Source of the DNA: Henricia sp. BOLD:AAB3569
Lineage: Eukaryota; Echinodermata; Asteroidea; Spinulosida; Echinasteridae
Length of the DNA stretch: 64,000 nt
NCBI GenBank assembly: GCA_037783545.1
Contig: JBBELK010001514.1
Location: 1-64,000 of the forward strand
Reading direction: 5' to 3'
The stretch's first letter is position 1, and every line of letters starts with the position of its first letter. Shown here piece by piece: positions 91-50,757 of this stretch. The position numbers and the translations under genes were made by a program. Below the pieces are notes generated by a model. The model was given only the letters and a program-made list of their open reading frames with translations. It was not told the DNA's origin and searched no databases.

Positions 91-116
91 GCAGACAAAC
101 TTCCAATTTTGTCTGC
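91..116. repeat. Inverted repeat in satellite A (GCAGACAAA / TTTGTCTGC)
   Basis: In monomers with the TTTTGTCTGC variant, a perfect 9-bp inverted repeat with an 8-nt loop is present (91-99 against 108-116). In the commoner TTTTGCCTGC form one pair is lost, and in TTTCGCCTGC two are lost. An overlapping alternative dyad, AATTGG with CCAATT, uses the same bases. The variant with the perfect stem recurs many times (for example near 2706, 4286, 9468, 11659, 12672 and 14066). Confidence 0.7.
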
Positions 117-23300: not shown

Positions 23301-26300
23301 CAGACAAACTTCCAATTTTGCCTGCTAAAACAGCTCTATATCCCAAACGTGTTGTGCAAATTTCAGCAATTTCCCGTTTAAACCGACAGAGTTATCGTCG
23401 AATCTAGCAAAAACTCCTTTTCGCACGAGCAGACGCCGCTTTCGTGAAACCTTGCGTCTGAAACGGTCGCTATTTTGGAACTGAAGGAATTGGCACACAA
23501 ACTTTCAATTCTGCCTGCTAAAACAACTCTATATCCCAAACGTGTTGTGCAAATTTCAGCAATTTCCCGTTTAAACCGACAGAGTTATCGTCGAATCTAG
23601 CAAAAACTCCCTGCCGGCGCAGTTTTCGCACAAGCAGACGCCGCTTTCGTGAAACCTTGCGTCTGAAACGGTCGCTATTTTGGAACTGAAGGAATTTGCA
23701 GACAAACTTCCAATTTCGCCTGCTAAAACAACTCTATATCCCAAACGTGTTGTGCACATTTCAGCAATTTCCCGTTTAAACCGACAGAGTTATCGTCGAA
23801 TCTAGCAAAAACTCCCTGCCGGCACAGTTTTCGCACGAGCAGACGCCGCTTTCGTGAAACCTTGCGTCTGAAACGGTCGCTATTTTGGAACTGAAGGAAT
23901 TGGCAGACAAACTTCCAATTTTGCCTGCTAAAACAACTCTATATCCCAAACGTGTTGTGCAAATTTCAGCAATTTCCCGTTTAAACCGACAGAGTTATCG
24001 TCGAATCTAGCAAAAACTCCCTGCAGGCACAGTTTTCGCACGAGCAGACGCCGCTTTCGTGAAACCTTGCGTCTGAAACGGTCGCTATTTTGGAACTGAA
24101 GGAATTGGCAGACAAACTTCCAATTTTGCCTGCTAAAACAACTCTATATCCCAAACGTGTTGTGCAAATTTCAGCAATTTCCCGTTTAAACCGACTGAGT
24201 TATCGTCGAATCTAGCAAAAACTCCTTTTCGCACGAGCAGACGCCGCTTTCGTGAAACCTTGCGTCTGAAACGGTCGCTATTTTGGAACTGAAGGAATTG
24301 GCAGACAAACTTCCAATTTTGTCTGCTAAAACAACTCTATATCCCAAACGTGTTGTGCAAATTTCAGCAATTTCCCGTTTAAACCGACAGAGTTATCGTC
24401 GAATCTAGCAAAAACTCCTTTTCGCACGAGCAGACGCCGCTTTCGTGAAACCTTGCGTCTGAAACGGTCGCTATTTTGGAACTGAAGGAATTGGCAGACA
24501 AACTTCCAATTTTGCCTGCTAAAACAACTCTATATCCCAAACGTGTTGTGCAAATTTCAGCAATTTCCCGTTTAAACTGACAGAGTTATCGTCGAATCTA
24601 GCAAAAACTCCCTGCCGGCACAGTTTTCGCACGAGCAGACGCCGCTTTCGTGAAACCTTGCGTCTGAAACGGTCGCTATTTTGGAACTGAGAGAATTTGC
24701 AGACAAACTTCCAATTTTGCCTGCTAAAACAACTCTATATCCCAAACGTGTTGTGCACATTTCAGCAATTTCCCGTTTAAACCGACAGAGTTATCGTCGA
24801 ATCTAGCAAAAAACTCCCTGCCGGCACAGTTTTCGCACAAGCAGACGCCGCTTTCGTGAAACCTTGCGTCTGAAACGGTCGCTATTTTGGAACTGAAGAA
24901 ATTTGCAGACAAACTTCCAATTTCGCCTGCTAAAACAACTCTATATCCCAAACGTGTTGTGCACATTTCAGCAATTTCCCGTTTAAACCGACAGAGTTAT
25001 CGTCGAATCTAGCAAAAACTCCCTGCCGGCACAGTTTTCGCACAAGCAGACGCCGCTTTCGTGAAACCTTGCGTCTGAAACGGTCGCTATTTTGGAACTG
25101 AAGGAATTGGCAGACAAACTTCCAATTTTGCCTGCTAAAACAACTCTATATCCCAAACGTGTTGTGCACATTTCAGCAATTTCCCGTTTAAACCGACAGA
25201 GTTATCGTCGAATCTAGCAAAAAACTCCCTGCCGGCACAGTTTTCGCACAAGCAGACGCCGCTTTCGTGAAACCTTGCGTCTGAAACGGTCGCTATTTTG
25301 GAACTGAAGAAATTTGCAGACAAACTTCCAATTTCGCCTGCTAAAACAACTCTATATCCCAAACGTGTTGTGCACATTTCAGCAATTTCCCGTTTAAACC
25401 GACAGAGTTATCGTCGAATCTAGCAAAAACTCCCTGCCGGCACAGTTTTCGCACAAGCAGACGCCGCTTTCGTGAAACCTTGCGTCTGAAACGGTCGCTA
25501 TTTTGGAACTGAAGGAATTGGCAGACAAACTTCCAATTTCGCCTGCTAAAACAACTCTATATCCCAAACGTGTTGTGCACATTTCAGCAATTTCCCGTTT
25601 AAACCGACAGAGTTATCGTCGAATCTAGCAAAAACTCCTTTTCGCACGAGCAGACGCCGCTTTCGTGAAACCTTGCGTCTGAAACGGTCGCTATTTTGGA
25701 ACTGAAGGAATTGGCAGACAAACTTCCAATTTTGCCTGCTAAAACAACTCTATATCCCAAACGTGTTGTGCAAATTTCAGCAATTTCCCGTTTAAACCGA
25801 CAGAGTTATCGTCGAATCTAGCAAAAACTCCTTTTCGCACGAGCAGACGCCGCTTTCGTGAAACCTTGCGTCTGAAACGGTCGCTATTTTGGAACTGAAG
25901 GAATTGGCACACAAACTTTCAATTCTGCCTGCTAAAACAACTCTATATCCCAAACGTGTTGTGCAAATTTCAGCAATTTCCCGTTTAAACCGACAGAGTT
26001 ATCGTCGAATCTAGCAAAAACTCCCTGCCGGCGCAGTTTTCGCACAAGCAGACGCCGCTTTCGTGAAACCTTGCGTCTGAAACGGTCGCTATTTTGGAAC
26101 TGAAGGAATTTGCAGACAAACTTCCAATTTCGCCTGCTAAAACAACTCTATATCCCAAACGTGTTGTGCACATTTCAGCAATTTCCCGTTTAAACCGACA
26201 GAGTTATCGTCGAATCTAGCAAAAACTCCCTGCCGGCACAGTTTTCGCACGAGCAGACGCCGCTTTCGTGAAACCTTGCGTCTGAAACGGTCGCTATTTT

Positions 26301-29300
26301 GGAACTGAAGGAATTGGCAGACAAACTTCCAATTTTGCCTGCTAAAACAACTCTATATCCCAAACGTGTTGTGCAAATTTCAGCAATTTCCCGTTTAAAC
26401 CGACAGAGTTATCGTCGAATCTAGCAAAAACTCCCTGCAGGCACAGTTTTCGCACGAGCAGACGCCGCTTTCGTGAAACCTTGCGTCTGAAACGGTCGCT
26501 ATTTTGGAACTGAAGGAATTGGCAGACAAACTTCCAATTTTGTCTGCTAAAACAACTCTATATCCCAAACGTGTTGTGCAAATTTCAGCAATTTCCCGTT
26601 TAAACCGACAGAGTTATCGTCGAATCTAGCAAAAACTCCTTTTCGCACGAGCAGACGCCGCTTTCGTGAAACCTTGCGTCTGAAACGGTCGCTATTTTGG
26701 AACTGAAGGAATTGGCAGACAAACTTCCAATTTTGCCTGCTAAAACAACTCTATATCCCAAACGTGTTGTGCAAATTTCAGCAATTTTCCGTTTAAACCG
26801 ACAGAGTTATCGTCGAATCTAGCAAAAACTCCCTGCCGGCACAGTTTTCGCACGAGCAGACGCCGCTTTCGTGAAACCTTGCGTCTGAAACGGTCGCTAT
26901 TTTGGAACTGAAGGAATTGGCGGACAAACTTCCAATTTTGCCTGCTAAAACAACTCTATATCCCAAACGTGTTGTGCAAATTTCAGCAATTTCCCGTTTA
27001 AACTGACAGAGTTATCGTCGAATCTAGCAAAAACTCCCTGCCGGCACAGTTTTCGCACGAGCAGACGCCGCTTTCGTGAATCCTTGCGTCTGAAACGGTC
27101 GCTATTTTGGAACTGAGAGAATTTGCAGACAAACTTCCAATTTTGCCTGCTAAAACAACTCTATATCCCAAACGTGTTGTGCACATTTCAGCAATTTCCC
27201 GTTTAAACCGACAGAGTTATCGTCGAATCTAGCAAAAAACTCCCTGCCGGCACAGTTTTCGCACAAGCAGACGCCGCTTTCGTAAAACCTTGCGTCTGAA
27301 ACGGTCGCTATTTTGGAACTGAAGGAATTTGCAGACAAACTTCCAATTTCGCCTGCTAAAACAACTCTATATCCCAAACGTGTTGTGCACATTTCAGCAA
27401 TTTCCCGTTTAAACCGACAGAGTTATCGTCGAATCTAGCAAAAACTCCCTGCCGGCACAGTTTTCGCACAAGCAGACGCCGCTTTCGTGAAACCTTGCGT
27501 CTGAAACGGTCGCTATTTTGGAACTGAAGGAATTGGCAGACAAACTTCCAATTTCGCCTGCTAAAACAACTCTATATCCCAAACGTGTTGTGCACATTTC
27601 AGCAATTTCCCGTTTAAACCGACAGAGTTATCGTCGAATCTAGCAAAAACTCCCTGCCGGCACAGTTTTCGCACGAGCAGACGCCGCTTTCGTGAAACCT
27701 TGCGTCTGAAACGGTCGCTATTTTGGAACTGAAGGAATTGGCAGACAAACTTCCAATTTTGCCTGCTAAAACAACTCTATATCCCAAACGTGTTGTGCAA
27801 ATTTCAGCAATTTCCCGTTTAAACCGACAGAGTTATCGTCGAATCTAGCAAAAACTCCTTTTCGCACGAGCAGACGCCGCTTTCGTGAAACCTTGCGTCT
27901 GAAACGGTCGCTATTTTGGAACTGAAGGAATTGGCAGACAAACTTCCAATTTTGTCTGCTAAAACAACTCTATATCCCAAACGTGTTGTGCAAATTTCAG
28001 CAATTTCCCGTTTAAACCGACAGAGTTATCGTCGAATCTAGCAAAAACTCCCTGCCGGCGCAGTTTTCGCACAAGCAGACGCCGCTTTCGTGAAACCTTG
28101 CGTCTGAAACGGTCGCTATTTTGGAACTGAAGGAATTTGCAGACAAACTTCCAATTTCGCCTGCTAAAACAACTCTATATCCCAAACGTGTTGTGCACAT
28201 TTCAGCAATTTCCCGTTTAAACCGACAGAGTTATCGTCGAATCTAGCAAAAACTCCCTGCCGGCACAGTTTTCGCACGAGCAGACGCCGCTTTCGTGAAA
28301 CCTTGCGTCTGAAACGGTCGCTATTTTGGAACTGAAGGAATTGGCAGACAAACTTCCAATTTTGCCTGCTAAAACAACTCTATATCCCAAACGTGTTGTG
28401 CAAATTTCAGCAATTTCCCGTTTAAACCGACAGAGTTATCGTCGAATCTAGCAAAAACTCCTTTTCGCACGAGCAGACGCCGCTTTCGTGAAACCTTGCG
28501 TCTGAAACGGTCGCTATTTTGGAACTGAAGGAATTGGCAGACAAACTTCCAATTTTGTCTGCTAAAACAACTCTATATCCCAAACGTGTTGTGCAAATTT
28601 CAGCAATTTTCCGTTTAAACCGACAGAGTTATCGTCGAATCTAGCAAAAACTCCTTTTCGCACGAGCAGCCGCCGCTTTCGTGAAACCTTGCGTCTGAAA
28701 CGGTCGCTATTTTGGAACTGAAGGAATTGGCAGACAAACTTCCAATTTTGCCTGCTAAAACAACTCTATATCCCAAACGTGTTGTGCAAATTTCAGCAAT
28801 TTTCCGTTTAAACCGACAGAGTTATCGTCGAATCTAGCAAAAACTCCCTGCCGGCACAGTTTTCGCACGAGCAGACGCCGCTTTCGTGAAACCTTGCGTC
28901 TGAAACGGTCGCTATTTTGGAACTGAAGGAATTGGCGGACAAACTTCCAATTTTGCCTGCTAAAACAACTCTATATCCCAAACGTGTTGTGCAAATTTCA
29001 GCAATTTCCCGTTTAAACTGACAGAGTTATCGTCGAATCTAGCAAAAACTCCCTGCCGGCACAGTTTTCGCACGAGCAGACGCCGCTTTCGTGAAACCTT
29101 GCGTTTGAAACGGTCGCTATTTTGGAACTGAGAGAATTTGCAGACAAACTTCCAATTTTGCCTGCTAAAACAACTCTATATCCCAAACGTGTTGTGCACA
29201 TTTCAGCAATTTCCCGTTTAAACCAACAGAGTTATCGTCGAATCTAGCAAAAAACTCCCTGCCGGCACAGTTTTCGCACAAGCAGACGCCGCTTTCGTGA

Positions 29301-29407
29301 AACCTTGCGTCTGAAACGGTCGGTATTTTGGAACTGAAGGAATTTGCAGACAAACTTCCAATTTCGCCTGCTAAAACAACTCTATATCCCAAACGTGTTG
29401 TGCACAT
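20373..29407 (+). repeat. Satellite A decamer higher-order repeat series, ~2.0 kb
   Basis: Equivalent landmark monomers (ACTGACAG long form followed by GGAACTGAGAGAATTTG) occur at 20373, 22569, 24572, 26998 and 29013. The steps are 2,196, 2,003, 2,426 and 2,015 bp. Each fits ten, eleven or twelve monomers with varying numbers of 12-bp segments. The 2,426-bp step is explained by an extra 411-bp dimer at about 25135-25545. The GAAGAAATTTG variant at 22892 and 24895 confirms the 2,003-bp step. The block shows both homogenisation at the multi-monomer scale and continuing local gain of units. Confidence 0.8.
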
Positions 29408-30999
29408 TTCAGCAATTTCCCGTTTAAACCGACAGAGTTATCGTCGAATCTAGCAAAAACTCCCTGCCGGCACAGTTTTCGCACGAGCAGACGCCGCTTT
29501 CGTGAAACCTTGCGTCTGAAACGGTCGCTATTTTGGAACTGAAGGAATTGGCAGACAAACTTCCAATTTTGTCTGCTAAAACAACTCTATATCCCAAACG
29601 TGTTGTGCAAATTTCAGCAATTTCCCGTTTAAACCGACAGAGTTATCGTCGAATCTAGCAAAAACTCCTTTTCGCACGAGCAGACGCCGCTTTCGTGAAA
29701 CCTTGCGTCTGAAACGGTCGCTATTTTGGAACTGAAGAAATTGGCAGACAAACTTCCAATTTTGCCTCCTAAAACAACTCTATATCCCAAACGTGTTGTG
29801 CAAATTTCAGCAATTTCCCGTTTAAACCGACAGAGTTATCGTCGAATCTAGCAAAAACTCCTTTTCGCACGAGCAGACGCCGCTTTCGTGAAACCTTGCG
29901 TCTGAAACGGTCGCTATTTTGGAACTGAAGGAATTGGCAGACAAACTTCCAATTTTGCCTGCTGAAACAACTCTATATCCCAAACGTGTTGTGCAAATTT
30001 CAGCAATTTCCCGTTTAAACCGACAGAGTTATCGTCGAATCTAGCAAAAACTCCTTTTCGCACGAGCAGACGCCGCTTTCGTGAAACCTTGCGGCTGAAA
30101 CGGTCGCTATTTTGGAACTGAAGGAATTGGCAGACAAACTTCCAATTTTGCCTGCTAAAACAACTCTATATCCCAAACGTGTTGTGCAAATTTCAGCAAT
30201 TTCCCGTTTAAACCGACAGAGTTATCGTCTAATCTAGCAAAAACTCCCTGCCGGCACAGTTTTCGCACGAGCAGACGCCGCTTTCGTGAAACCTTGCGTC
30301 TGAAACGGTCGCTATTTTGGAACTGAAGGAATTGGCACACAAACTTTCAATTATGCCTGCTAAAACAACTCTATATCCCAAACGTGTTGTGCAAATTTCA
30401 GCTATTTCCCGTTTAAACCGACAGAGTTATCGTCGAATCTAGCAAAAACTCCCTGCCGGCGCAGTTTTCGCACAAGCAGACGCCGCTTTCGTGAAACCTT
30501 GCGTCTGAAACGGTCGCTATTTTGGAACTGAAGGAATTTGCAGACAAACTTCCAATTTCGCCTGCTAAAACAACTCTATATCCCAAACGTGTTGTGCACA
30601 TTTCAGCAATTTCACGTTTAAACCGACAGAGTTATCGTCGAATCTAGCAAAAACTCCCTGCCGGCACAGTTTTCGCACGAGCAGACGCCGCTTTCGTGAA
30701 ACCTTGCGTCTGAAACGGTCGCTATTTTGGAACTGAAGGAATTGGCAGACAAACTTCCAATTTTGTCTGCTAAAACAACTCTATATCCCAAACGTGTTGT
30801 GCAAATTTCAGCAATTTCCCGTTTAAACCGACAGAGTTATCGTCGAATCTAGCAAAAACTCCTTTTCGCACGAGCAGACGCCGCATTCGTGAAACCTTGC
30901 GTCTGAAACGGTCGCTATTTTGGAACTGAAGGAATTGGCAGACAAACTTCCAATTTTGCCTGCTAAAACAACTCTATATCCCAAACGTGTTGTGCAAAT

Positions 31000-33490
31000 T
31001 TCAGCAATTTCCCGTTTAAACCGACAGAGTTATCGTCGAATCTAGCAAAAACTCCATGCAGGCACAGTTTTCGCACGAGCAGACGCCGCTTTCGTGAAAC
31101 CTTGCGTCTGAAACGGTCGCTATTTTGGAACTGAGAGAATTTGCAGACAAACTTCAAATTTTGCCTGCTAAAACAACTCTATATCCCAAACGTGTTGTGC
31201 ACATTTCAGCAATTTCACGTTTAAACCGACAGAGTTATCGTCGAATCTAGCAAAAACTCCCTGCCGGCACAGTTTTCGCACGAGCAGACGCCGCTTTCGT
31301 GAAACCTTGCGTCTGAAACGGTCGCTATTTTGGAACTGAAGGAATTGGCAGACAAACTTCCAATTTTGTCTGCTAAAACAACTCTATATCCCAAACGTGT
31401 TGTGCAAATTTCAGCAATTTCCCGTTTAAACCGACAGAGTTATCGTCGAATCTAGCAAAAACTCCTTTTCGCACGAGCAGACGCCGCATTCGTGAAACCT
31501 TGCGTCTGAAACGGTCGCTATTTTGGAACTGAAGGAATTGGCAGACAAACTTCCAATTTTGCCTGCTAAAACAACTCTATATCCCAAACGTGTTGTGCAA
31601 ATTTCAGCAATTTCCCGTTTAAACCGACAGAGTTATCGTCGAATCTAGCAAAAACTCCATGCAGGCACAGTTTTCGCACGAGCAGACGCCGCTTTCGTGA
31701 AACCTTGCGTCTGAAACGGTCGCTATTTTGGAACTGAGAGAATTTGCAGACAAACTTCCAATTTTGCCTGCTAAAACAACTCTATATCCCAAACGTGTTG
31801 TGCACATTTCAGCAATTTCCCGTTTAAACTGACAGAGTTATCGTCGAAACTAGCAAAAACTCCCTGCCGGCACAGTTTTCGCACGAGCAGACGCCGCTTT
31901 CGTGAAACCTTGCGTCTGAAACGGTCGCTATTTTGGAACTGAGAGAATTTGCAGACAAACTTCCAATTTTGCCTGCTAAAACAACTCTATATCCCAAACG
32001 TGTTGTGCACATTTCAGCAATTTCCCGTTTAAACCGACAGAGTTATCGTCGAATCTAGCAAAAAACTCCCTGCCGGCACAGTTTTCGCACAAGCAGACGC
32101 CGCTTTCGTGAAACCTTGCGTCTGAAACGGTCGCTATTTTGGAACTGAAGGAATTTGCAGACAAACTTCCAATTTCGCCTGCTAAAACAACTCTATATCC
32201 CAAACGTGTTGTGCACATTTCAGCAATTTCCCGTTTAAACCGACAGAGTTATCGTCGAATCTAGCAAAAACTCCATGCAGGCACAGTTTTCGCACGAGCA
32301 GACGCCGCTTTCGTGAAACCTTGCGTCTGAAACGGTCGCTATTTTGGAACTGAGAGAATTTGCAGACAAACTTCAAATTTTGCCTGCTAAAACAACTCTA
32401 TATCCCAAACGTGTTGTGCACATTTCAGCAATTTCACGTTTAAACCGACAGAGTTATCGTCGAATCTAGCAAAAACTCCCTGCCGGCACAGTTTTCGCAC
32501 GAGCAGACGCCGCTTTCGTGAAACCTTGCGTCTGAAACGGTCGCTATTTTGGAACTGGAGGAATTGGCAGACAAACTTCCAATTTTGTCTGCTAAAACAA
32601 CTCTATATCCCAAACGTGTTGTGCAAATTTCAGCAATTTCCCGTTTAAACCGACAGAGTTATCGTCGAATCTAGCAAAAACTCCTTTTCGCACGAGCAGA
32701 CGCCGCATTCGTGAAACCTTGCGTCTGAAACGGTCGCTATTTTGGAACTGAAGGAATTGGCAGACAAACTTCCAATTTTGCCTGCTAAAACAACTCTATA
32801 TCCCAAACGTGTTGTGCAAATTTCAGCAATTTCCCGTTTAAACCGACAGAGTTATCGTCGAATCTAGTAAAAACTCCATGCAGGCACAGTTTTCGCACGA
32901 GCAGACGCCGCTTTCGTGAAACCTTGCGTCTGAAACGGTCGCTATTTTGGAACTGAGAGAATTTGCAGACAAACTTCCAATTTTGCCTGCTAAAACAACT
33001 CTATATCCCAAACGTGTTGTGCACATTTCAGCAATTTCCCGTTTAAACTGACAGAGTTATCGTCGAATCTAGCAAAAACTCCCTGCCGGCACAGTTTTCG
33101 CACGAGCAGACGCCGCTTTCGTGAAACCTTGCGTCTGAAACGGTCGCTATTTTGGAACTGAGAGAATTTGCAGACAAACTTCCAATTTTGCCTGCTAAAA
33201 CAACTCTATATCCCAAACGTGTTGTGCACATTTCAGCAATTTCCCGTTTAAACCGACAGAGTTATCGTCGAATCTAGCAAAAAACTCCCTGCCGGCACAG
33301 TTTTCGCACAAGCAGACGCCGCTTTCGTGAAACCTTGCGTCTGAAACGGTCGCTATTTTGGAACTGAAGGAATTTGCAGACAAACTTCCAATTTCGCCTG
33401 CTAAAACAACTCTATATCCCAAACGTGTTGTGCACATTTCAGCAATTTCCCGTTTAAACCGACAGAGTTATCGTCGAATCTAGCAAAAAC
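31000..33490 (+). repeat. Satellite A hexamer higher-order repeat, 1,219 bp
   Basis: Two copies of a six-monomer block are offset by exactly 1,219 bp. Shared private marks include TTTCACGTTT at 31214 and 32433, ACTTCAAATTTTG near 31149 and 32368, and CCATGCAGG near 31054 and 32275. A related hexamer with a 1,206-bp step runs from about 34058 to 35452. This right-hand part of the array (about 30.1-36.3 kb) carries marks absent further left (ATGCAGG, GCCGCATTCG, TTCACGTTT), so it forms its own subfamily domain next to the junction. Confidence 0.8.
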
Positions 33491-36300
33491 TCCCTGCCGG
33501 CACAGTTTTCGCACGAGCAGACGCCGCTTTCGTGAAACCTTGCGTCTGAAACGGTCGCTATTTTGGAACTGAAGGAATTGGCAGACAAACTTCCAATTTT
33601 GCCTGCTAAAACAACTCTATATCCCAAACGTGTTGTGCAAATTTCAGCAATTTCCCGTTTAAACCGACAGAGTTATCGTCGAAGCTAGCAAAAACTCCTT
33701 TTCGCACGAGCAGACGCCGCTTTCGTGAAACCTTGCGTCTGAAACGGTCGCTATTTTGGAACTGAGAGAATTTGCAGACAAACTTCCAATTTTGCCTGCT
33801 AAAACAACTCTATATCCCAAACGTGTTGTGCACATTTCAGCAAATTTCCCGTTTAAACCGACAAAGTTATCGTCGAATCTAGCAAAAACTCCCTGCCGGC
33901 ACAGTTTTCGCACGAGCAGACGCCGCTTTCGTGAAACCTTGCGTCTGAAACGGTCGCTATTTTGGAACTGAAGGAATTGGCACACAAACTTTCAATTATG
34001 CCTGCTAAAACAACTCTATATCCCAAACGAGTTGTGCAAATTTCAGCAATTTCCCGTTTAAACCGACAGAGTTATCGTCGAATCTAGCAAAAACTCCCTG
34101 CCGGCGCAGTTTTCGCACAAGCAGACGCCGCTTTCGTGAAACCTTGCGTCTGAAACGGTCGCTATTTTGGAACTGAAGGAATTTGCAGACAAACTTCCAA
34201 TTTCGCCTGCTAAAACAACTCTATATCCCAAACGTGTTGTGCACATTTCAGCAATTTCACGTTTAAACCGACAGAGTTATCGTCGAATCTAGCAAAAACT
34301 CCCTGCCGGCACAGTTTTCGCACGAGCAGACGCCGCTTTCGTGAAACCTTGCGTCTGAAACGGTCGCTATTTTGGAACTGAAGGAATTGGCAGACAAACT
34401 TCCAATTTTGTCTGCTAAAACAACTCTATATCCCAAACGTGTTGTGCAAATTTCAGCAATTTCCCGTTTAAACCGACATAGTTATCGTCGAATCTAGCAA
34501 AAACTCCTTTTCGCACGAGCAGACGCCGCATTCGTGAAACCTTGCGTCTGAAACGGTCGCTATTTTGGAACTGAAGGAATTGGCAGACAAACTTCCAATT
34601 TTGCCTGCTAAAACAACTCTATATCCCAAACGTGTTGTGCAAATTTCAGCAATTTCCCGTTTAAACCGACAGAGTTATCGTCGAATCTAGCAAAAACTCC
34701 ATGCAGGCACAGTTTTCGCACGAGCAGACGCCGCTTTCGTGAAACCTTGCGTCTGAAACGGTCGCTATTTTGGAACTGAAGGAATTGGCAGACAAACTTC
34801 CAATTTTGCCTGCTAAAACAACTCTATATCCCAAACGTGTTGTGCAAATTTCAGCAATTTCCCGTTTAAACCGACAGAGTTATCGTCGAATCTAGCAAAA
34901 ACTCCTTTTCGCACGAGCAGACGCCGCTTTCGTGAAACCTTGCGGCTGAAACGGTCGCTATTTTGGAACTGAAGGAATTGGCAGACAAACTTCCAATTTT
35001 GCCTGCTAAAACAACTCTATATCCCAAACGTGTTGTGCAAATTTCAGCAATTTCCCGTTTAAACCGACAGAGTTATCGTCGAATCTAGCAAAAACTCCCT
35101 GCCGGCACAGTTTTCGCACGAGCAGACGCCGCTTTCGTGAAACCTTGCGTCTGAAACGGTCGCTATTTTGGAACTGAAGGAATTGGCACACAAACTTTCA
35201 ATTATGCCTGCTAAAACAACTCTATATCCCAAACGTGTTGTGCAAATTTCAGCAATTTCCCGTTTAAACCGACAGAGTTATCGTCGAATCTAGCAAAAAC
35301 TCCCTGCCGGCGCAGTTTTCGCACAAGCAGACGCCGCTTTCGTGAAACCTTGCGTCTGAAACGGTCGCTATTTTGGAACTGAAGGAATTTGCAGACAAAC
35401 TTCCAATTTCGCCTGCTAAAACAACTCTATATCCCAAACGTGTTGTGCACATTTCAGCAATTTCACGTTTAAACCGACAGAGTTATCGTCGAATCTAGCA
35501 AAAACTCCCTGCCGGCACAGTTTTCGCACGAGCAGACGCCGCTTTCGTGAAACCTTGCGTCTGAAACGGTCGCTATTTTGGAACTGAAGGAATTGGCAGA
35601 CAAACTTCCAATTTTGTATGCTAAAACAACTCTATATCCCAAACGTGTTGTGCAAATTTCAGCAATTTCCCGTTTAAACCGACAGAGTTATCGTCGAATC
35701 TAGCAAAAACTCCTTTTCGCACGAGCAGACGCCGCATTCGTGAAACCTTGCGTCTGAAACGGTCGCTATTTTGGAACTGAAGGAATTGGCAGACAAACTT
35801 CCAATTTTGCCTGCTAAAACAACTCTATATCCCAAACGTGTTGTGCAAATTTCAGCAATTTCCCGTTTAAACCGACAGAGTTATCGTCGAATCTAGCAAA
35901 AACTCCATGCAGGCACAGTTTTCGCACGAGCAGACGCCGCTTTCGTGAAACCTTGCGTCTGAAACGGTCGCTATTTTGGAACTGAAGGAATTGGCAGACA
36001 AACTTCCAATTTTGCTTGCTAAAACAACTCTATATCCCAAACGTGTTGTGCAAATTTCAGCAATTTCCCGTTTAAACCGACAGAGTTATCGTCGAATCTA
36101 GCAAAAACTCCCTGCCGGCACAGTTTTCGCACGAGCAGACGCCGCTTTCGTGAAACCTTGCGTCTGAAACGGTCGCTATTTTGGAACTGAAGGAATTGGC
36201 GGACAAACTTCCAATTTTGCCTGCTAAAACAACTCTATATCCCAAACGTGTTGTGCAAATTTCAGCAATTTCCCGTTTAAACTGACAGGCCCGTATTCTG

Positions 36301-36360
36301 AAGTCTGGTTTAGTTAAACTCGAGTTTAAATTTAAACTCGAGTTTAACTAAACTAGACTT
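36301..36360. repeat. 60-bp near-perfect palindrome
   Basis: The two 30-bp arms, 36301-36330 and 36331-36360, are reverse complements with no spacer, centred on AAATTT. Twenty-nine of 30 pairs match; the mismatch involves the G at 36307 and the T at 36354. Each arm contains CTCGAG flanked by GTTTAA-type motifs. It lies 13 bp inside the putative transposon terminus, where subterminal transposase-binding or foldback structures are common. Confidence 0.9.
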
Positions 36361-36480
36361 AAACCTGAACTCCAGTCTAAGTCTGGTTTAAATCTTTTCC
36401 TGTTTCTGAAAGTCAGGTTTAACTAAACTTGAGTCTAAGTCTAGTCTAACTGTTAAACCTTGGTTTAAAGTTAAACTCTG
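36361..36480 (+). repeat. Subterminal GTTTAA/GTCTAA-rich repeats
   Basis: This stretch contains many short direct and inverted copies of GGTTTAA, TTAAACC, GTCTAAGTCT and AACTAAACT. The part from 36404 (TTCTGAAAGTCAGGTTTAAC) imperfectly repeats the element's own start at 36296 (TTCTGAAGTCTGGTTTAG), about 108 bp away. Together with the palindrome before it, this gives a structured terminus of about 190 bp. I see no coding potential. Confidence 0.75.
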
Positions 36481-36653
36481 CTTTATTTGGCATGGAGATC
36501 TACTGCACATGCTCAGTTGTACCAGGGTTGCATACATGTACATATTGCACATCCTCCACTTAGTGCACACTGCCTGCACAGCAAGTACTACAATAGCTCA
36601 GTGTACATGTACTATTGTCTTGTTTCCAGCAGTGAGGCTAAATTAAAACAAAA
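36481..36653 (+). other. Leader upstream of the Myb/SANT-like ORF
   Basis: This is non-repetitive sequence between the subterminal repeats and the ATG. It holds two short palindromes around ATGTACAT (near 36534) and GTACATGTAC (36603-36612). A pyrimidine-rich TTGTCTTGTTTCCAG ending at 36629 resembles a splice acceptor, so an intron in the 5' untranslated region is possible, though no matching donor is evident. No convincing TATA box was found. Short ORFs on both strands here show no family resemblance. Confidence 0.4.
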
Positions 36654-36887
36654 ATGGCTGAAACCGACAAGAGGATGAAGAATAGAAATCCTCGTAGAGC
36701 CAATTGGGAGATGAACGAAAAACACTTTTTAATTGAGTTGGTTACAGCGTGTGTCGAGGTAATTGAAAGAAAAAAGAATGACTTTGAGTCGAATTCAGCC
36801 AATATGAATGCGTGGAACAAAGTGTGGAAACAATTCAGCGCTAGATACGGCCAAAGAAGAGAGCTAAGAGAGCTGAAGGAACAGTGA
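36654..36887 (+). pseudogene. Myb/SANT-like DNA-binding protein, N-terminal fragment (truncated)
   Basis: The ORF has 77 codons. The ATG at 36654 is in a strong Kozak setting (AAAAATGG, A at -3 and G at +4). A basic N-terminus (residues 6-15, rich in K and R) is followed by a Myb/SANT-like domain from about residue 17. W18 and FLIELV (25-30) fit helix 1, AW at 53-54 and VWKQF (57-61) fit helix 2, and RRELRELKEQ (68-77) starts helix 3, the expected DNA-recognition helix. Relatives normally continue with a tryptophan and more basic residues after LKEQ. Here the sequence switches to satellite B, and TGA at 36885-36887 straddles the join, so the stop comes from the satellite. In PIF/Harbinger transposons this protein helps the transposase bind DNA; host-domesticated versions also exist. 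This copy lacks most of helix 3 and everything after it, so it is presumably non-functional. The family assignment rests on pattern recognition, not a search. Confidence 0.65.
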
Positions 36888-37125
36888 GCTCGGCTACGTG
36901 GTTATTCCCCTAACCGTGGCTGTTGGGACACCCTGCGCCGCGCTGGTGTACATTTGTACGGCCGTTGACTCACCCCAGATTGTGACGGGAATTAGGTCAA
37001 AGTGTGTCCCAAATGCCGGCAAATTTGGAAATCAAGGAATTTTCCAACCAACTTCAAATTTTGCATGCTCCAAACTGTATATATTCCGCACTTGTCATGC
37101 AAAATTGACATATTTTCGCTAGGAA

Positions 37126-40100
37126 ATGACGGAGAAATTTCAGAGTTTAGGGAAAACGGAGCTCGGCTGCGTGGTTATTCCCCTAACCGTGGCTGTTGGG
37201 ACACCCTGCGCCGCGCTGGTGTACATTTGTACGGCCGTTGACTCACCCCATATTGTGACGGGAATTAGGTCAAAGTGTGTCCCAAATGCCGGCAAATTTG
37301 GAAATCAAGGAATTTTCCAACCAACTTCAAATTTTGCACGCTCCAAACTGTATATATTCCGCACTTGTCATGCAAAATTGACATATTTTCGCTAGGAAAT
37401 GACGGAGAAATTTCAGAGTTTAGGGAAAACGGAGCTCGGCTGCGTGGTTATTCCCCTAACCGTGGCTGTTGGGACACCCTGCGCCGCGCTGGTGTACATT
37501 TGTACGGCCGTTGACTCACCCCAGATTGTGACGGGAATTAGGTCAAAGTGTGTCCCAAATGCCGGCAAATTTGGAAATCAAGGAATTTTCCAACCAACTT
37601 CAAATTTTGCATGCTCCAAACTGTATATATCCCGCACTTTTCATGCAAAATTGACAGATTTTCGCTGGGAAATGACGGAGAAATTTCAGAGTTTAGGGAA
37701 AACGGAGCTCGGCTACGTGGTTATTCCCCTAACCGTGGCTGTTGGGACACCCTGCGCCGCGCTGGTGTACATTTGTACGGCCGTTGACTCACCCCAGATT
37801 GTGACGGGAATTAGGTCAAAGTGTGTCCCAAATGCCGGCAAATTTGGAAATCAAGGAATTTTCCAACCAACTTTAAATTTTGCATGCTCCAAACTGTATA
37901 TATCCCGCACTTGTCATGCAAAATTGACAGATTTTCGCTGGGAAATGACGGAGAAATTTCAGAGTTTAGGGAAAACGGAGCTCGGCTACGTGGTTATTCC
38001 CCTAACCGTGGCTGTTGGGACACCCTGCGCCGCGCTGGTGTACATTTGTACGGCCGTTGACTCACCCCAGATTGTGACGGGAATCAGGTCAAAGTGTGTC
38101 CCAAATGCCGGCAAATTTGGAAATCAAGGAATTTTCCAACCAACTTCACATTTTGCATGCTCCAAACTGTATATATTCCGCACTTGTCATGCAAAATTGA
38201 CAGATTTCCGCTGGGAAATGACGGAGAAATTTCAGAGTTTAGGGAAAACGGAGCTCGGCTGCGTGGTTATTCCCCTAACCGTGGCTGTTGGGACACCCTG
38301 CACCGCGCTGGTGTACATTTGTACGGCCGTTGACTCACCCCAGATTGTGACGGGAATTAGGTCAAAGTGTGTCCCAAATGCCGGCAAATTTGAAAATCAA
38401 GGAATTTTCCAACCAACTTCAAATTTTGCATGCTCCAAACTGTATATATTCCGCACTTGTCATGCAAAATTGACATATTTTCGCTGGGAAATGACGGAGA
38501 AATTTCAGAGTTTAGGGAAAACGGAGCTCGGCTACGTGGTTATTCCCCTAACCGTGGCTGTTGGGACACCCTGCGCCGCGCTGGTGTACATTTGTACGGC
38601 CGTTGACTCACCCCAGATTGTGACGGGAATTAGGTCAAAGTGTGTCCCAAATGCCGGCAAATTTGGAAATCAAGGAATTTTCCAACCAACTTCAAATTTT
38701 GCATGCTCCAAACTGTATATATTCCGCACTTGTCATGCAAAATTGACATATTTTCGCTAGGAAATGACGGAGAAATTTCAGAGTTTAGGGAAAACGGAGC
38801 TCGGCTGCGTGGTTATTCCCCTAACCGTGGCTGTTGGGACACCCTGCGCCGCGCTGGTGTACATTTGTACGGCCGTTGACTCACCCCATATTGTGACGGG
38901 AATTAGGTCAAAGTGTGTCCCAAATGCCGGCAAATTTGGAAATCAAGAAATTTTCCAACCAACTTCAAATTTTGCACGCTCCAAACTGTATATATTCCGC
39001 ACTTGTCATGCAAAATTGACATATTTTCGCTAGGAAATGACGGAGAAATTTCAGAGTTTAGGGAAAACGGAGCTCGGCTGCGTGGTTATTCCCCTAACCG
39101 TGGCTGTTGGGACACCCTGCGCCGCGCTGGTGTACATTTGTACGGCCGTTGACTCACCCAGATTGTGACGGGAATTAGGTCAAAGTGTGTCCCAAATGCC
39201 GGCAAATTTGGAAATCAAGGAATTTTCCAACCAACTTCAAATTTTGCATGCTCCAAACTGTATATATCCCGCACTTTTCATGCAAAATTGACAGATTTTC
39301 GCTGGGAAATTACGGAGAAATTTCAGAGTTTAGGGAAAACGGAGCTCGGCTACGTGGTTATTCCCCTAACCGTGGCTGTTGGGACACCCTGCGCCGCGCT
39401 GGTGTACATTTGTACGGCCGTTGACTCACCCCAGATTGTGACGGGAATTAGGTCAAAGTGTGTCCCAAATGCCGGCAAATTTGGAAATCAAGGAATTTTC
39501 CAACCAACTTTAAATTTTGCATGCTCCAAACTGTATATATCCCGCACTTGTCATGCAAAATTGACAGATTTTCGCTGGGAAATGACGGAGAAATTTCAGA
39601 GTTTAGGGAAAACGGAGCTCGGCTACGTGGTTATTCCCCTAACCGTGGCTGTTGGGACACCCTGCGCCGCGCTGGTGTACATTTGTACGGCCGTTGACTC
39701 ACCCCATATTGTGACGGGAATCAGGTCAAAGTGTGTCCCAAATGCCGGCAAATTTGGAAATCAAGGAATTTTCCAACCAACTTCAAATTTTGCATGCTCC
39801 AAACTGTATATATTCCGCACTTGTCATGCAAAATTGACAGATTTCCGCTGGGAAATGACGGAGAAATTTCAGAGTTTAGGGAAAACAGAGCTCGGCTGCG
39901 TGGTTATTCCCCTAACCGTGGCTGTTGGGGACACCCTGCACCGCGCTGGTGTACATTTGTACGGCCGTTGACTCACCCCAGATTGTGACGGGAATTAGGT
40001 CAAAGTGTGTCCCAAATGCCGGCAAATTTGAAAATCAAGGAATTTTCCAACCAACTTCAAATTTTGCATGCTCCAAACTGTATATATTCCGCACTTGTCA

Positions 40101-40400
40101 TGCAAAATTGACATATTTTCGCTGGGAAATGACGGAGAAATTTCAGAGTTTAGGGAAAACGGAGCTCGGCTACGTGGTTATTCCCCTAACCGTGGCTGTT
40201 GGGACACCCTGCGCCGCGCTGGTGTACATTTGTACGGCCGTTGACTCACCCCATATTGTGACGGGAATTAGGTCAAAGTGTGTCCCAAATGCCGGCAAAT
40301 TTGGAAATCAAGGAATTTTCCAACCAACTTCAAATTGTGCATGCTCCAAACTGTATATATCCCGCACTTGTCATGCAAAATTGACAGATGTTCGCTGGGA
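37126..40400 (+). repeat. Satellite B hexamer duplication, ~1,638 bp
   Basis: The six-monomer block starting at 37126 is repeated from 38764, an offset of 1,638 bp (6 x 273). The rare CGCTAGG variant occurs near 37117, 37390, 38755 and 39028, and TTTGAAAATC occurs near 38390 and 40027. The second copy has gained a one-base deletion near 39159 (CACCCAG) and a one-base insertion near 39930 (TTGGGGAC). Confidence 0.82.
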
Positions 40401-43282
40401 AATGACGGAGAAATTTCAGAGTTTAGGGAAAACGGAGCTCGGCTACGTGGTTATTCCCCTAACCGTGGCTGTTGGGACACCCTGCGCCGCGCTGGTGTAC
40501 ATTTGTACGGCCGTTGACTCACCCCAGATTGTGACGGGAATTAGGTCAAAGTGTGTCCCAAATGCCGGCAAATTTGGAAATCAAGGAATTTTCCAACCAA
40601 CTTCAAATTTTGCATGCTCCAAACTGTATATATCCCGCACTTGTCATGCAAAATTGACAGATTTTCGCTGGGAAATTACGGAGAAATTTCAGAGTTTAGG
40701 GAAAACGGAGCTCGGCTACGTGGTTATTCCCCTAACCGTGGCTGTTGGGACACCCTGCGCCGCGCTGGTTTACATTTGTACGGCCGTTGACTCAGCCCAG
40801 ATTGTGACGGAAATTAGGTCAAAGTGTGTCCCAAATGCCGGCAAATTTGGAAATCAAGGAATTTTCCAACCAACTTCTAATTTTGCATGCTCCAAACTGT
40901 ATATATCCTGCACTTGTCATGCAAAATTGACAGATTTTCGCTGGGAAATGACGGAGAAATGTCAGAGTTTAGGGAAAATGGAGCTCGGCTACGTGGTTAT
41001 TTCCCTAACCGTGGCTGTTGGGACACACTGCGCCGCGCTGGTGTACATTTGTACGGCCGTTGACTCACCCCAGATTGTGACGGGAATTAGGTCAAAGTGT
41101 GTCCCAAATGCCGGCAAATTTGGAAATCAAGGAATTTTCCAACCAACTTCAAATTTTGCATGCTCCAAACTGTATATATTCCGCACTTGTCATGCAAAAT
41201 TGACAGATTTTCGCTGGGAAATGACGGAGAAATTTCAGAGTTTAGGGAAAACGGAGCTAGGCTACGTGGTTATTCCCCTAACCGTGGCTGTTGGGACACC
41301 CTGCGCCGCGCTGGTGTACATTTGTACGGCCGTTGACTCACCCCAGATTGTGACGGGAATTAGGTCAAAGTGTGTCCCAAATGCCGGCAAATTTGGAAAT
41401 CAAGAAATTTTACAACCAACTTCAAATTTTGCATGCTCCAAACTGTATATATCCCGCACTTGTCATGCAAAATTGACAGATGTTCGCTGGAAATGACGGA
41501 GAAATTTCAGAGTTTAGGGAAAACGGAGCTCGGCTACGTGGTTATTCCCCTAACCGTGGCTGTTGGGACACCCTGCGCCGCGCTGGTGTACATTTGTACG
41601 GCCGTTGACTCACCCCAGATTGTGACGGGAATTAGGTCAAAGTGTGTCCCAAATGCCGGCAAATTTGGAAATCAAGGAATTTTCCAACCAACTTCAAATT
41701 TTGCATGCTCCAAACTGTATATATTCCGCACTTGTCATGCAAAATTGACAGATTTTCGCTGGGAAATGACGGAGAAATTTCAGAGTTTAGGGAAAACGGA
41801 GCTAGGCTACGTGGTTATTCCCCTAACCGTGGCTGTTGGGACACCCTGCGCCGCGCTGGTGTACATTTGTACGGCCGTTGACTCACCCCAGATTGTGACG
41901 GGAATTAGGTCAAAGTGTGTCCCAAATGCCGGCAAATTTGGAAATCAAGGAATTTTCCAACCAACTTCAAATTTTGCATGCTCCAAACTGTATATATCCC
42001 GCACTTGTCATGCAAAATTGACAGATTTTCGCTGGGAAATGACGGAGAAATTTCAGAGTTTAGGGAAAACGGAGCTAGGCTACGTGGTTATTCCCCTAAC
42101 CGTGGCTGTTGGGACACCCTGCGCCGCGCTGGTGTACATTTGTACGGCCGTTGACTCACCCCAGATTGTGACGGGAATTAGGTCAAAGTGTGTCCCAAAT
42201 GCCGGCAAATTTGGAAATCAAGAAATTTTACAACCAACTTCAAATTTTGCATGCTCCAAACTGTATATATCCCGCACTTGTCATGCAAAATTGACAGATT
42301 TTCGCTGGGAAATGACGGATAAATTTCAGAGTTTAGGGAAAACGGAGCTCGGCTGCGTGGTTATTCCCCTAACCGTGGCTGTTGGGACACCCTGCGCCGC
42401 GCTGGTGTACATTTGTACGGCCGTTGACTCTCCCCAGATTGTGACGGGAATTAGGTCAAAGTGTGTCCCAAATGCCGGCAAATTTGGAAATCAAGGAATT
42501 TTCCAACCAACTTCAAATTTTGCATGCTCCAAATAACTGTATATATCCCGCACTTGTCATGCAAAATTGACAGATTTTCGCTGGGAAATGACGGAGAAAT
42601 TTCAGAGTTGAGGGAAAACGGAGCTCGGCTACGCGGTTATTCCCCTAACCGTGGCTGTTGGGACACCCTGCGCCGCGCTGGTTTACATTTGTACGGCCGT
42701 TGACTCACCCCAGATTGTGACGGAAATTAGGTCAAAGTGTGTCCCAAATGCCGGCAAATTTGGAAATCAAGGAATTTTCCAACCAACTTCTAATTTTGCA
42801 TGCTCCAAACTGTATATATCCTGCACTTGTCATGCAAAATTGACAGATTTTCGCTGGGAAATGACGGAGAAATGTCAGAGTTTAGGGAAAATGGAGCTCG
42901 GCTACGTGGTTATTCCCTTAACCGTGGCTGTTGGGACACCCTGCGCCGCGCTGGTGTACATTTGTACGGCCGTTGACTCACCCCAGATTGTGACGGGAAT
43001 TAGGTCAAAGTGTGTCCCAAATGCCGGCAAATTTGGAAATCAAGGAATTTTCCAACCAACTTCAAATTTTGCGTTCTCCAAACTGTATATATCCCGCACT
43101 TGTCATGCAAAATTGACAGATTTTCGCTGGGAAATGACGGAGAAATTTCAGAGTTTAGGGAAAACGGAGCTCGGCTGCGTGGTTATTCCCCTAACCGTGG
43201 CTGTTGGGACACCCTGCGCCGCGCTGGTGTACATTTGTACGGCCGTTGACTCACCCCAGATTGTGACGGGAATTAGGTCAAA

Positions 43283-45740
43283 GTGTGTCCCAAATGCCGG
43301 GAAATTTGGAAATCATGGAATTTTCCAACCAACTTCAAATTTTGCATGCTCCAAACTGTATATATTCCGCACTTGTCATGCAAAATTGACAGATTTTCGC
43401 TGGGAAATGACGGAGAAATTTCAGAGTTTAGGGGAAAACGGAGCTCGGCTACGTGGTTATTTCCCTAACCGTGGCTGTTGGGACACCCTGCGCCGCGCTG
43501 GTGTACATTTGTACGGCCGTTGACTCACCCCAGATTGTGACGGGAATTAGGTCAAAGTGTGTCCCAAATGCCGGCAAATTTCGAAATCAAGAAATTTTCC
43601 AACCAACTTCAAATTTTGCATGCTCCAAACTGTATATATCCCGCCCCTGTCATGCAAAATTGACAGATTTTCGCTGGGAAATGACGGAGAAATTTCAGAG
43701 TTTAGGGAAAACGGAGCTCGGCTGCGTGGTTATTCCCCTAACCGTGGCTGTTGGGACACCCTGCGCCGCGCTGGTGTACATTTGTACGGCCGTTGACTCA
43801 CCCCAGATTGTGACGGGAATTAGGTCAAAGTGTGTCCCAAATGCCGGCAAATTTGGAAATCAAGAAATTTTCCAACCAACTTCAAATTTTGCATGCTCCA
43901 AACTGTATATATTCCGCACTTGTCATGCAAAATTGACAGATTTTCGCTGGGAAATGACGGAGAAATTTCAGAGTTTAGGGAAAACGGAGCTCGGCTGCGT
44001 GGTTATTCCCCTAACCGTGGCTGTTGGGACACCCTGCGCCGCGCTGGTGTACATTTGTACGGCCGTTGACTCACCCCAGATTGTGACGGGAATTAGGTCA
44101 AAGTGTGTCCCAAATGCGGGAAATTTGGAAATCATGGAATTTTCCAACCAACTTCAAATTTTGCATGCTCCAAACTGTATATATTCCGCACTTGTCATGC
44201 AAAATTGACAGATTTTCGCTGGGAAATGACGGAGAAATTTCAGAGTTTAGGGAAAACGGAGCTCGGCTACGTGGTTATTTCCCTAACCGTGGCTGTTGGG
44301 ACACCCTGCGCCGCGCTGGTGTACATTTGTACGGCCGTTGACTCACCCCAGATTGTGACGGGAATTAGGTCAAAGTGTGTCCCAAATGCCGGCAAATTTC
44401 GAAATCAAGAAATTTTCCAACCAAAACTTCAAATTTTGCATGCTCCAAACTGTATATATCCCGCCCCTGTCATGCAAAATTGACAGATTTTCGCTGGGAA
44501 ATGACGGAGAAATTTCAGAGTTTAGGGAAAACGGAGCTCGGCTGCGTGGTTATTCCCCTAACCGTGGCTGTTGGGACACCCTGCGCCGCGCTGGTGTACA
44601 TTTGTACGGCCGTTGACTCACCCCAGATTGTGACGGGAATTAGGTCAAAGTGTGTCCCAAATGCCGGCAAATTTGGAAATCAAGAAATTTTCCAACCAAC
44701 TTCAAATTTTGCATGCTCCAAACTGTATATATTCCGCACTTGTCATGCAAAATTGACAGATTTTCGCTGGGAAATGACGGAGAAATTTCAGAGTTTAGGG
44801 AAAACGGAGCTCGGCTGCGTGGTTATTCCCCTAACCGTGGCTGTTGGGACACCCTGCGCCGCGCTGGTGTACATTTGTACGGCCGTTGACTCACCCCAGA
44901 TTGTGACGGGAATTAGGTCAAAGTGTGTCCCAAATGCCGGGAAATTTGGAAATCATGGAATTTTCCAACCAACTTCAAATTTTGCATGCTCCAAACTGTA
45001 TATATTCCGCACTTGTCATGCAAAATTGACAGATTTTCGCTGGGAAATGACGGAGAAATTTCAGAGTTTAGGGAAAACGGAGCTCGGCTACGTGGTTATT
45101 TCCCTAACCGTGGCTGTTGGGACACCCTGCGCCGCGCTGGTGTACATTTGTACGGCCGTTGACTCACCCCAGATTGTGACGGGAATTAGGTCAAAGTGTG
45201 TCCCAAATGCCGGCAAATTTCGAAATCAAGAAATTTTCCAACCAACTTCAAATTTTGCATGCTCCAAACTGTATATATCCCGCCCCTGTCATGCAAAATT
45301 GACAGATTTTCGCTGGGAAATGACGGAGAAATTTCAGAGTTTAGGGAAAACGGAGCTCGGCTGCGTGGTTATTCCCCTAACCGTGGCTGTTGGGACACCC
45401 TGCGCCGCGCTGGTGTACATTTGTACGGCCGTTGACTCACCCCAGATTGTGACGGGAATTAGGTCAAAGTGTGTCCCAAATGCCGGCAAATTTGGAAATC
45501 AAGAAATTTTCCAACCAACTTCAAATTTGGCATGCTCCAAACTGTATATATTCCGCACTTGTCATGCAAAATTGACAGATTTTCGCTGGGAAATGACGGA
45601 GAAATTTCAGAGTTTAGGGAAAACGGAGCTCGGCTGCGTGGTTATTCCCCTAACCGTGGCTGTTGGGACACCCTGCGCCGCGCTGGTGTACATTTGTACG
45701 GCCGTTGACTCACCCCAGATTGTGACGGGAATTAGGTCAA
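43283..45740 (+). repeat. Satellite B trimer higher-order repeat, ~820 bp, three copies
   Basis: Three successive copies of a three-monomer block are marked by GGGAAATTTGGAAATCATGG near 43299, 44117 and 44939, by AATTTCGAAATC near 43577, 44396 and 45216, and by CGCCCCTGTC near 43641, 44462 and 45282. Small indels (an extra G near 43432, a missing base near 44117, a short insertion near 44423) distinguish the copies. Confidence 0.82.
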
Positions 45741-47073
45741 AGTGTGTCCCAAATGCCGGCAAATTTGGAAATCAAGGAATTTTCCAACCAACTTCAAATT
45801 TTGCATGATCCAAACTGTATATATCCCGCACTTGTCATGCAAAATTGACAGATTTTCGCTGGGAAATGACGGAGAAATTTCAGAGTTTAGGGAAAACGGA
45901 GCTCGGCTACGTGGTTATTCCCCTAACCGTGGCTGTTGGGACACCCTGCTCCGCGCTGGTTTACATTTGTACGGCCGTTGACTCACCCCAGATTGTGACG
46001 GGAATTAGGTCAAAGTGTGTCCCAAATGCCGGCAAATTTGGAAATCAAGGAATTTTCCAACCAACTTCAAATTTTGCATGATCCAAACTGTATATATCCC
46101 GCACTTGTCATGCAAAATTGACAGACTTTCGCTCTGAAATTACGGAGAAATTTCAGAGTTTATGGAAAACGGAGCTCGGCTGCGTGGTTATTCCCCTAAC
46201 CGTGGCTGTTGGGACACCCTGCGCCGCGCTGGTGTACATTTGTACGGCCGTTGACTCACCCCAGATTGTGACGGGAATTAGGTCAAAGTGTGTCCCAAAT
46301 GCCGGGAAATTTGGAAATCAAGGAATTTTCCAACCAACTTCAAATTTTGCATGCTCCAAACTGTATATATTCCGCACTTGTCATGCAAAATTGACAGATT
46401 TTCGCTGGAAAATGACGGAGAAATTTCAGAGTTTAGGGAAAACGGAGCTCGGCTACGTGGTTATTCCCCTAACCGTGGCTGTTGGGACACCCTGCGCCGC
46501 GCTGGTTTACATTTGTACGGCCGTTGACTCACCCCAGATTGTGACGGAAATTAGGTCAAAGTGTGTCCCAAATGCCGGCAAATTTGGAAATCAAGGAATT
46601 TTCCAACCAACTTCTAATTTTGCATGCTCCAAACTGTATATAAACTGCACTTTTCATGCAAAATTGACAGATTTTCGCTGGGAAATGACGGAGAAATGTC
46701 AGAGTTTAGGGAAAACGGAGCTCGGCTACGTGGTTATTTCCCTAACCGTGGCTGTTGGGACACCCTGCGCCGCGCTGGTGTACATTTGTACGGCCGTTGA
46801 CTCACCCCAGATTGTGACGGGAATTAGGTCAAAGTGTGTCCCAAATGCCGGCAAATTTGGAAATCAAGACATTTTACAACCAACTTCAAATTTTGCATGC
46901 TCCAAACTGTATATATCCCGCACTTGTCATGCAAAATTGACAGATTTTCGCTGGGAAATGACGGAGAAATTTCCGAGTTTAGGGAAAACGGAGCTCGGCT
47001 GCGTGGTTATTCCCCTAACCGTGGCTGTTGGGACACCCTGCGCCGCGCTGGTGTACATTTGTACGGCCGTTGA

Positions 47074-50440: not shown

Positions 50441-50757
50441 TTGCATGATCCAAACTGTATATATCCAGCACTTGTCATGCAAAATTGACAGACTTTCGCT
50501 GGGAAATGACGGAGAAATTTCAGAGTTTAGGGAAAACGGAGCTCGGCTACGTGGTTATTCCCCTAACCGTGGCTGTTGGGACACCCTGCGCCGCGCTGGT
50601 TTACATTTGTACGGCCGTTGACTCACCCCAGATTGTGACGGGAATTAGGTCAATGTGTGTCCCAAATGCCGGCAAATTTGGAAATCAAGGAATTTTCCAA
50701 CCAACTTCAAATTTTGCATGATCCAAACTGTATATATCCCGCACTTGTCATGCAAAA

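Follow-up and report, generated by a model that had tools for sequence, protein, structure and literature searches.

How did two satellite arrays with units of different length come to lie side by side, and do they share an origin? This question is raised by a stretch of 64,000 bp (hereafter the window) from Henricia sp. BOLD:AAB3569, which corresponds to bases 1-64,000 of the 98,827-bp contig JBBELK010001514.1 (C1514) in an assembly of 740.7 Mb and 2,104 contigs. Satellite A occupies positions 1..36287 on the plus strand, with 181 anchors and units of 193 and 205/206 bp, while satellite B, with 273-bp units on the same strand, fills 36886..64000 and runs on to the contig end (98,827). Both are satellite DNA, forming long head-to-tail arrays of nearly identical units (mean pairwise identity of 97.4% for long A, 98.8% for short A and 97.4% for B, from sampled pairs). 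We found that A and B units share a homologous core of 155 bp, and that they probably represent, with a third family named C, branches of one abundant satellite superfamily. The remainder of each unit is called here the spacer.

The original prediction for this locus, made from the sequence of the window, held that A and B share a 110-bp core and form one superfamily that split into two separately homogenised branches. The ungapped comparison on which it was based (A 1454-1563 against B 51205-51314) was reproduced exactly, with 76 identities in 110 positions and counts per ten bases of 7,5,8,7,8,8,6,7,7,7,6; the best ungapped match of this A segment to 300 dinucleotide-shuffled B units averaged 41.7 and never exceeded 49. 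As had been claimed, the copies flanking the junction can be aligned in the same way, since 36162-36271, in the partial last A monomer (36162..36287, plus strand, cut by a transposon insertion and containing most of the 155-bp core), and 37006..37115, in the first B core (plus strand), are identical at 75/110 positions. Consensus units were then built, using 112 monomers of long A, 68 of short A and 99 of B. When the long A and B consensuses were aligned locally, the match was ungapped over 155 bp, with 100/155 identities (64.5%). It scored 45, whereas 1000 dinucleotide shuffles averaged 9.9 and reached 17 at most, and the opposite strand scored 12. This shuffle comparison, which had been proposed along with the prediction, leaves the homology standing by a wide margin, and the predicted core of 110 bp proved too short. 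The proposed rightward extension (GACAGAG/GACGGAG, then TCTAGCAAAAAC/TTTAGGGAAAAC) is real and lies inside the 155-bp core, where none of the gaps claimed earlier is needed. The leftward one (CGTGAAA/GGTCAAA) had to be abandoned, as the A and B spacers resemble each other no better than shuffled sequences, their score being reached by 174/300 dinucleotide shuffles and 613/1000 simple shuffles. Taken together, the alignments support the descent of the A and B arrays from one ancestral repeat, as putative members of a larger superfamily.

Relatives of these units were found on other contigs. We read the first 900-5,000 bases of 16 contigs chosen by number alone; because contig ends favour repeats and 10 of the 16 lie between C1350 and C2000, this set is not a random genome sample. 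Fourteen of them start in the superfamily (six in B, one in A and seven in C), the exceptions being C1350 and C2100. Family C, divided into subtypes C1 and C2, has units of approximately 295-297 bp, and its consensuses, like those of other loci, were made only from monomers whose length lay at most 3 bp from the modal value. Each of the six pairs formed by A205, B, C1 and C2 scored above every one of 300 shuffles, with A/C core scores of 31-34 against shuffle maxima of 15-17 (300 shuffles). Core identity was 95-97% between C1 and C2, 82-85% between B and C, 64.5% between A and B, and 58-61% (ungapped) between A and six C consensuses, so on these values C appears to be the closest relative found for B, and A the outlier. 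B and C are homologous across the entire unit (score of 216-226), including their spacers, which alone score 28 against a shuffle maximum of 13 and are 60-61% identical, counting gaps, with indels (insertions or deletions). Whole-unit homology thus holds for B-C and C1-C2 and fails for the A spacer, which showed no similarity above chance to the C1 and C2 spacers either (92 and 33 of 300 shuffles reached the scores). Across families, spacer lengths are 38, 50, 118 and approximately 140 bp, and the 12-bp indel that distinguishes long from short A units is located in the spacer. At the 155 core sites compared among A, B and a C consensus (locus L035), all three agree at 85, B and C at 46, A and B at 15, A and C at 5, and all differ at 4. 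With A as the outgroup, C changed more than B (15 versus 5, binomial p 0.041), and the A-B core distance is 0.48 substitutions per site (Jukes-Cantor, JC). The predicted single superfamily with separately homogenised branches was therefore retained, with at least three branches (A, B and C) instead of two.

We then estimated the abundance of the superfamily in the whole assembly. Family-specific patterns matched 49,957 A, 176,847 B and 279,954 C units (506,758 in sum), and a pattern of sites common to the families gave 531,258 matches with at most 2 mismatches, that is, more than half a million core copies. Reversed-pattern controls returned 0 for all four patterns, and the final patterns gave zero cross-matches on 20 local stretches. 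The difference between the two totals, obtained at different pattern stringencies, may reflect divergent members or a further minor family. Multiplied by approximately 200, 273 and 296 bp, the unit counts correspond to 10 + 48 + 83 = 141 Mb, or about 19% of the assembly. This figure is low, since the patterns miss divergent units (at locus L041, the C pattern finds 8 units and a core search 17). Arrays are also present within megabase-scale contigs, at approximately 1.114-1.141 Mb of contig C2 and 2.191 and 2.820 Mb of contig C3, on opposite strands in the latter. On contig C196, the best B matches fall at approximately 100-603 kb, which gives the positions of matches and not the continuity of an array.

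The explanation that we favour, with a probability of about 0.72, is that A, B and C are branches of one satellite superfamily derived from a tandemly arranged ancestor whose core, at 155 bp, was of nucleosome length, that new branches spread only when the core length was kept, and that the contact between A and B is secondary. Core homology, separate homogenisation, the rarity of chimeras at the tested breakpoints and spacer change by indel are observed. The ancestral repeat would have given rise to the three branches, each of them amplified and homogenised inside its own arrays, possibly by unequal exchange, gene conversion or rolling-circle copying. A new branch would spread only if it retained the core length, its spacer being free to change, plausibly owing to a candidate role of the core in nucleosome positioning or in the binding of a heterochromatin or centromere protein. 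The search for intermediate monomers proposed with the original prediction found few or none between A and B. A pattern joining the left part of A to the right part of B/C had 2 matches in the whole assembly and the reverse pattern 0 (at most 2 mismatches each), while a B-left/C-right pattern had 0 within 1 mismatch, compared with the 506,758 family-specific matches. Each chimera pattern covers one breakpoint region, so recombinants are rare there, which does not show that exchange never occurs.

Evidence for a restriction on core length came from the comparison of core and spacer variation in a small sample of arrays, in which single arrays consist of few, correlated monomers. Variation counts are limited to alignments with identities of at least 85-88% that span at least 85-90% of the unit; loci L038, L035 and L041 belong to the larger variation set and not to the smaller one, and L032 and L051 to neither. 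With the scoring used, no core indel separates A from B, B from C or C1 from C2, while the spacers of B-C and C1-C2 carry indels. Between B and L035, for example, the core is identical at 131/155 positions with 0 gaps and the spacer at 84/118 with 22 gap columns (p 0.011), and between L028 and L036 the values are 148/155 and 119/140 (p 0.0025). Within arrays of B, C1 and C2, 50 indel sites were found in the core and 23 in the spacer, so that the core is affected at least as often; fixed B-C indel events numbered 0 in the core and 4-8 in the spacer, a contrast with Fisher p values of 0.0002-0.013. The larger array set, excluding A (132 core and 89 spacer sites), gave p values of 0.0009-0.028 for the B-C contrast, and two C-C pairs gave 0.11 and 0.32. 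Relative to polymorphism, fixed substitutions were fewer in the core (p 0.03 for B-L035, 0.07 for B-L036 and 0.0013 for L028-L036, 5% threshold). Core sites conserved between families also varied less within arrays (15/316 versus 29/247 at a threshold of at least 5%, CpG sites excluded, Fisher p 0.0025; p 0.025 at 2% and 0.016 at 10%). The contrast between core and spacer suggests, and does not prove, a constraint on the nucleosome-sized core. In our reading, selection, if present, would act at the step in which amplification of a unit founds a new family. A bolder version, which we hold only tentatively and consider rather doubtful, is that the 155-bp core is a functional module of nucleosome length, bearing a binding site and selected at family amplification or fixation rather than within arrays. 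Indels in single monomers would then be tolerated and none would enter a new family, spacers would turn over freely, and the module would underlie about a fifth of the assembly.

Several results speak against such a constraint or against a strict separation of the families. The comparison of L028 with L035 showed no difference between core and spacer (p 0.76), and the B-L036 comparison was borderline (p 0.058). When only indels seen at least 2 times were counted, the contrast weakened, with Fisher p values in the four B-C pairs of 0.04-0.23, and some of the indels within arrays may therefore be sequencing errors. An ungapped alignment of the A-C cores requires a gap opening cost of at least 4; these cores take 3-5 compensating gap events at -3, and at -2 the A-B core alignment also takes 6 gap events. 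By family, C2 alone fell below 0.05 in the conserved-site test (A 0.75, B 0.12, C1 0.17). Within-array substitution polymorphism in core and spacer, respectively, was 0.0149 and 0.0127 in A, 0.0163 and 0.0085 in B, 0.0063 and 0.0066 in C1, and 0.0137 and 0.0114 in C2; average polymorphism is thus not lower in the core, which gives no simple sign of present constraint. Variants within A arrays matched the base of another family in 19/36 cases (12.7 expected, p 0.035) and C2 variants in 7/9 (p 0.037), an excess not seen in B (8/22) or C1 (2/5), and which could reflect some exchange, shared old variants or mutation bias. Finally, a CENP-B box common to all families was not found, B, C1 and C2 being at chance. 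Only A carries, on the minus strand, 8/9 essential positions of the box (13/17 overall), at 36066-36082 and at the corresponding site of its other units, with a p value of 0.013 from 300 simple shuffles for this one of the four units tested.

The arrays are separated by a 599-bp transposon fragment, which is absent from the original prediction. This 5' part of a DNA transposon (36288..36886, plus strand) has a terminus, GGCCCGTATTCTGAA, identical in 4 other genomic copies, and its 5' end sits cleanly inside an A monomer. It includes a near-perfect palindrome of 30+30 bp (36301..36360, 97% complementary), on and around which lie weak, sub-threshold Rfam matches resembling microRNAs, and the start of a predicted Myb/SANT-like DNA-binding protein (36654..36887, plus strand; Pfam PF13873, E 9.4e-10), broken by the B array. 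Aligned sequences place the transposon/B breakpoint at 36886..36887, with a 1-bp overlap (G), and this junction is the only genomic match within 3 mismatches. The four other copies, with 97-99% protein identity, continue past the breakpoint position without B, and an origin of B from inside the transposon was rejected on these grounds. A matching inverted terminus was not found in 10-kb stretches; given the conserved 5' terminus and the Myb/SANT-like protein, the element is a candidate member of PIF/Harbinger, a group characterised by a terminal repeat, a Myb-like protein and a DDE nuclease. As read from the assembled sequence, the junction appears to be a transposon fragment inserted in A and truncated by B. 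An A monomer would first have received the transposon, whose Myb-like gene would later have been broken and joined to the B array. The units flanking the junction are typical of their families: the ten complete A units that precede it match the consensus at 97-100%, and the ten B units that follow it at 97-99.6%. Two families also share a second contig, C1301, with C1 repeats in the first 10 kb and in 14 samples between 14 and 79 kb, and A repeats that begin at 90 kb or earlier. Both of these arrays are on the minus strand, with non-satellite DNA at 84 and 87 kb between them. On the two contigs where two families were found together, contact is via other DNA and the polarity is the same.

Could this adjacency be an assembly error, the homology itself being real? 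The assembly contains a single transposon/B junction, both of its flanks are highly repetitive, and the adjacency is known from assembled sequence alone. However, the clean insertion within an A monomer, the same-strand C1 and A arrays of C1301 with other DNA between them, and the abrupt junctions that are the rule in the molluscan satellites of one study, according to its extracts (PMC5139131), make an error improbable. A chance or convergent likeness of AT-rich sequence, to which the A/T-rich composition of the shared blocks might point, is refuted by the score of 45 against a shuffle maximum of 17 and by family C, which bridges the two by matching both A and B.

Two other explanations accept the homology of the core. 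The core may have moved as a cassette, by recombination or with a mobile element, into an unrelated repeat, in which case A and B/C would share this module only and the 50-bp A spacer would have another origin. The lack of detectable similarity between the A spacer and the others is in line with such a capture, as is the ungapped end-to-end match of the A and B cores. Against it, the related B and C spacers already show fast change by indels, and at the A-B core distance a 50-bp spacer could have become unrecognisable with no capture at all, which leaves it unlikely. Alternatively, A and B/C could have been tandemised independently from a dispersed element holding the core, such as a miniature inverted-repeat transposable element (MITE), a Helitron or a short interspersed nuclear element (SINE). 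Some satellite repeats of molluscs are parts of Helitrons, as described in the same extracts (PMC5139131), and transposon-like inserts lie within and beside the present arrays. On the other hand, none of the 4 other copies of the junction transposon has B at the breakpoint, with only L018 and L021 traceable as matching DNA for approximately 5 kb. The window contains zero transfer RNA (tRNA) genes, which also disposes of a tRNA origin, and an origin from another known RNA was rejected, as the Rfam matches in 35,000-38,000 all fall on the transposon end, below gathering scores, with none in A or B units. Independent tandemisation is unlikely, less credible than capture of the core and slightly more credible than an assembly error. 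Branches of one superfamily with secondary contact remain our preferred explanation.

We also looked for other features in the units. Internal sub-repeats were unconvincing (best lag identity of 0.31-0.32 against a mean of 0.25, standard deviation of approximately 0.03), and a coding signal in the core was rejected, as A/B differences have no three-base period (15, 20, 20). The A and B cores each have a self-complementary stretch with a score reached by 0/1000 shuffles; these stretches are at different places, so a conserved dyad is not clearly shared. A ten-bp A/T periodicity (p 0.03 in A, 0.028 in B and 0.11 in C1) is too weak to rely upon.

Within the arrays, anchor spacings in A were 205/206 bp (n = 111), 193 bp (n = 67), 204 bp (n = 1) and 194 bp (n = 1). 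The 193- and 205-bp units alternate irregularly over 1-36287, with some blocks repeated, and no dominant higher-order period was found at lags 1-39 (best average identity of 0.957 at lag 35, mean of 0.951). At locus L015, a 68-bp deletion in the spacer marks two B monomers of 205 bp, at 3412 and 5257, 1,845 bp apart, each with a 275-bp unit before it at equal distance, as if a block had recently been duplicated. The 205-bp B variant was rejected as an ancestor linking B to the 205-bp A unit, being a deletion of 68 bp between CGGC repeats within a B array. Neighbouring units at L041, L032 and L051 (contigs C2000, C1500 and C600) show far more length variation or divergence, which could be due to older arrays or to lower base accuracy at contig ends. 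On contig C1374 (locus L029), an A array is broken three times (4454-5017, 5615-6176 and 7184-7745) by a non-satellite insert of 562-564 bp, the copies being 98-100% identical and adjoining TTTAA/TTAA; the insert looks like a small DNA transposon multiplied along with the array. On contig C1029 (locus L025, 9326-10000 and 1-275), an A array ends in non-satellite DNA bearing short CCCAACGGTAC-like repeats. The opening 95 bases of this locus are found again at its end, 100% identical, which places the insert in the array at least twice.

No paper describing the A, B or C units was found in the open-licence literature searched, which does not show that they are unpublished. In kind, the superfamily is ordinary satellite biology; its abundance and its fixed-length core, as opposed to a free spacer, are notable. 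Primate alpha satellite likewise comprises several diverged families that are separately homogenised, with a unit of nucleosome scale. It has one unit length of approximately 171 bp, judging from extracts of PMC8122249, whereas here the core length is fixed, the spacer varies from 38 and 50 to 118 and approximately 140 bp, and no CENP-B box is common to the families. The same extracts present nucleosome-length repeats as common at centromeres and include the cereal repeats CentO (155 bp) and CentC (156 bp), whose agreement with the 155-bp core is a coincidence of length and not a sequence comparison (PMC8122249). The 1.688 satellite family of Drosophila, with units of 353, 356, 359, 372 and 260 bp in pericentromeric blocks on different chromosomes, resembles the present case as one family with branches of different unit length, as portrayed in part of PMC7214746. 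Compared by description and not by sequence, the branches in Henricia differ in diverging up to approximately 40% in the core, in the unrelated A spacer and in covering about 19% of the assembly. The bivalve satellite BIV160 and the related pDTE keep two conserved segments and have abrupt junctions with other satellites or MITEs nearby, in the extracts of PMC5139131; the likeness, again of descriptions only, lies in a conserved segment among related satellites and in the abrupt junctions.

Whether satellite units carry a selected function or drift under homogenisation is a long-standing question. Having three diverged and discretely homogenised families in one genome makes within-array variation comparable with differences fixed between families, and the first such comparison, drawn from a small number of arrays, points to a core of nucleosome size and constrained length, with a spacer free to change. 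At about 19% of the assembly, itself a low estimate, the share of the superfamily matters for assembly and centromere work in this Henricia species.

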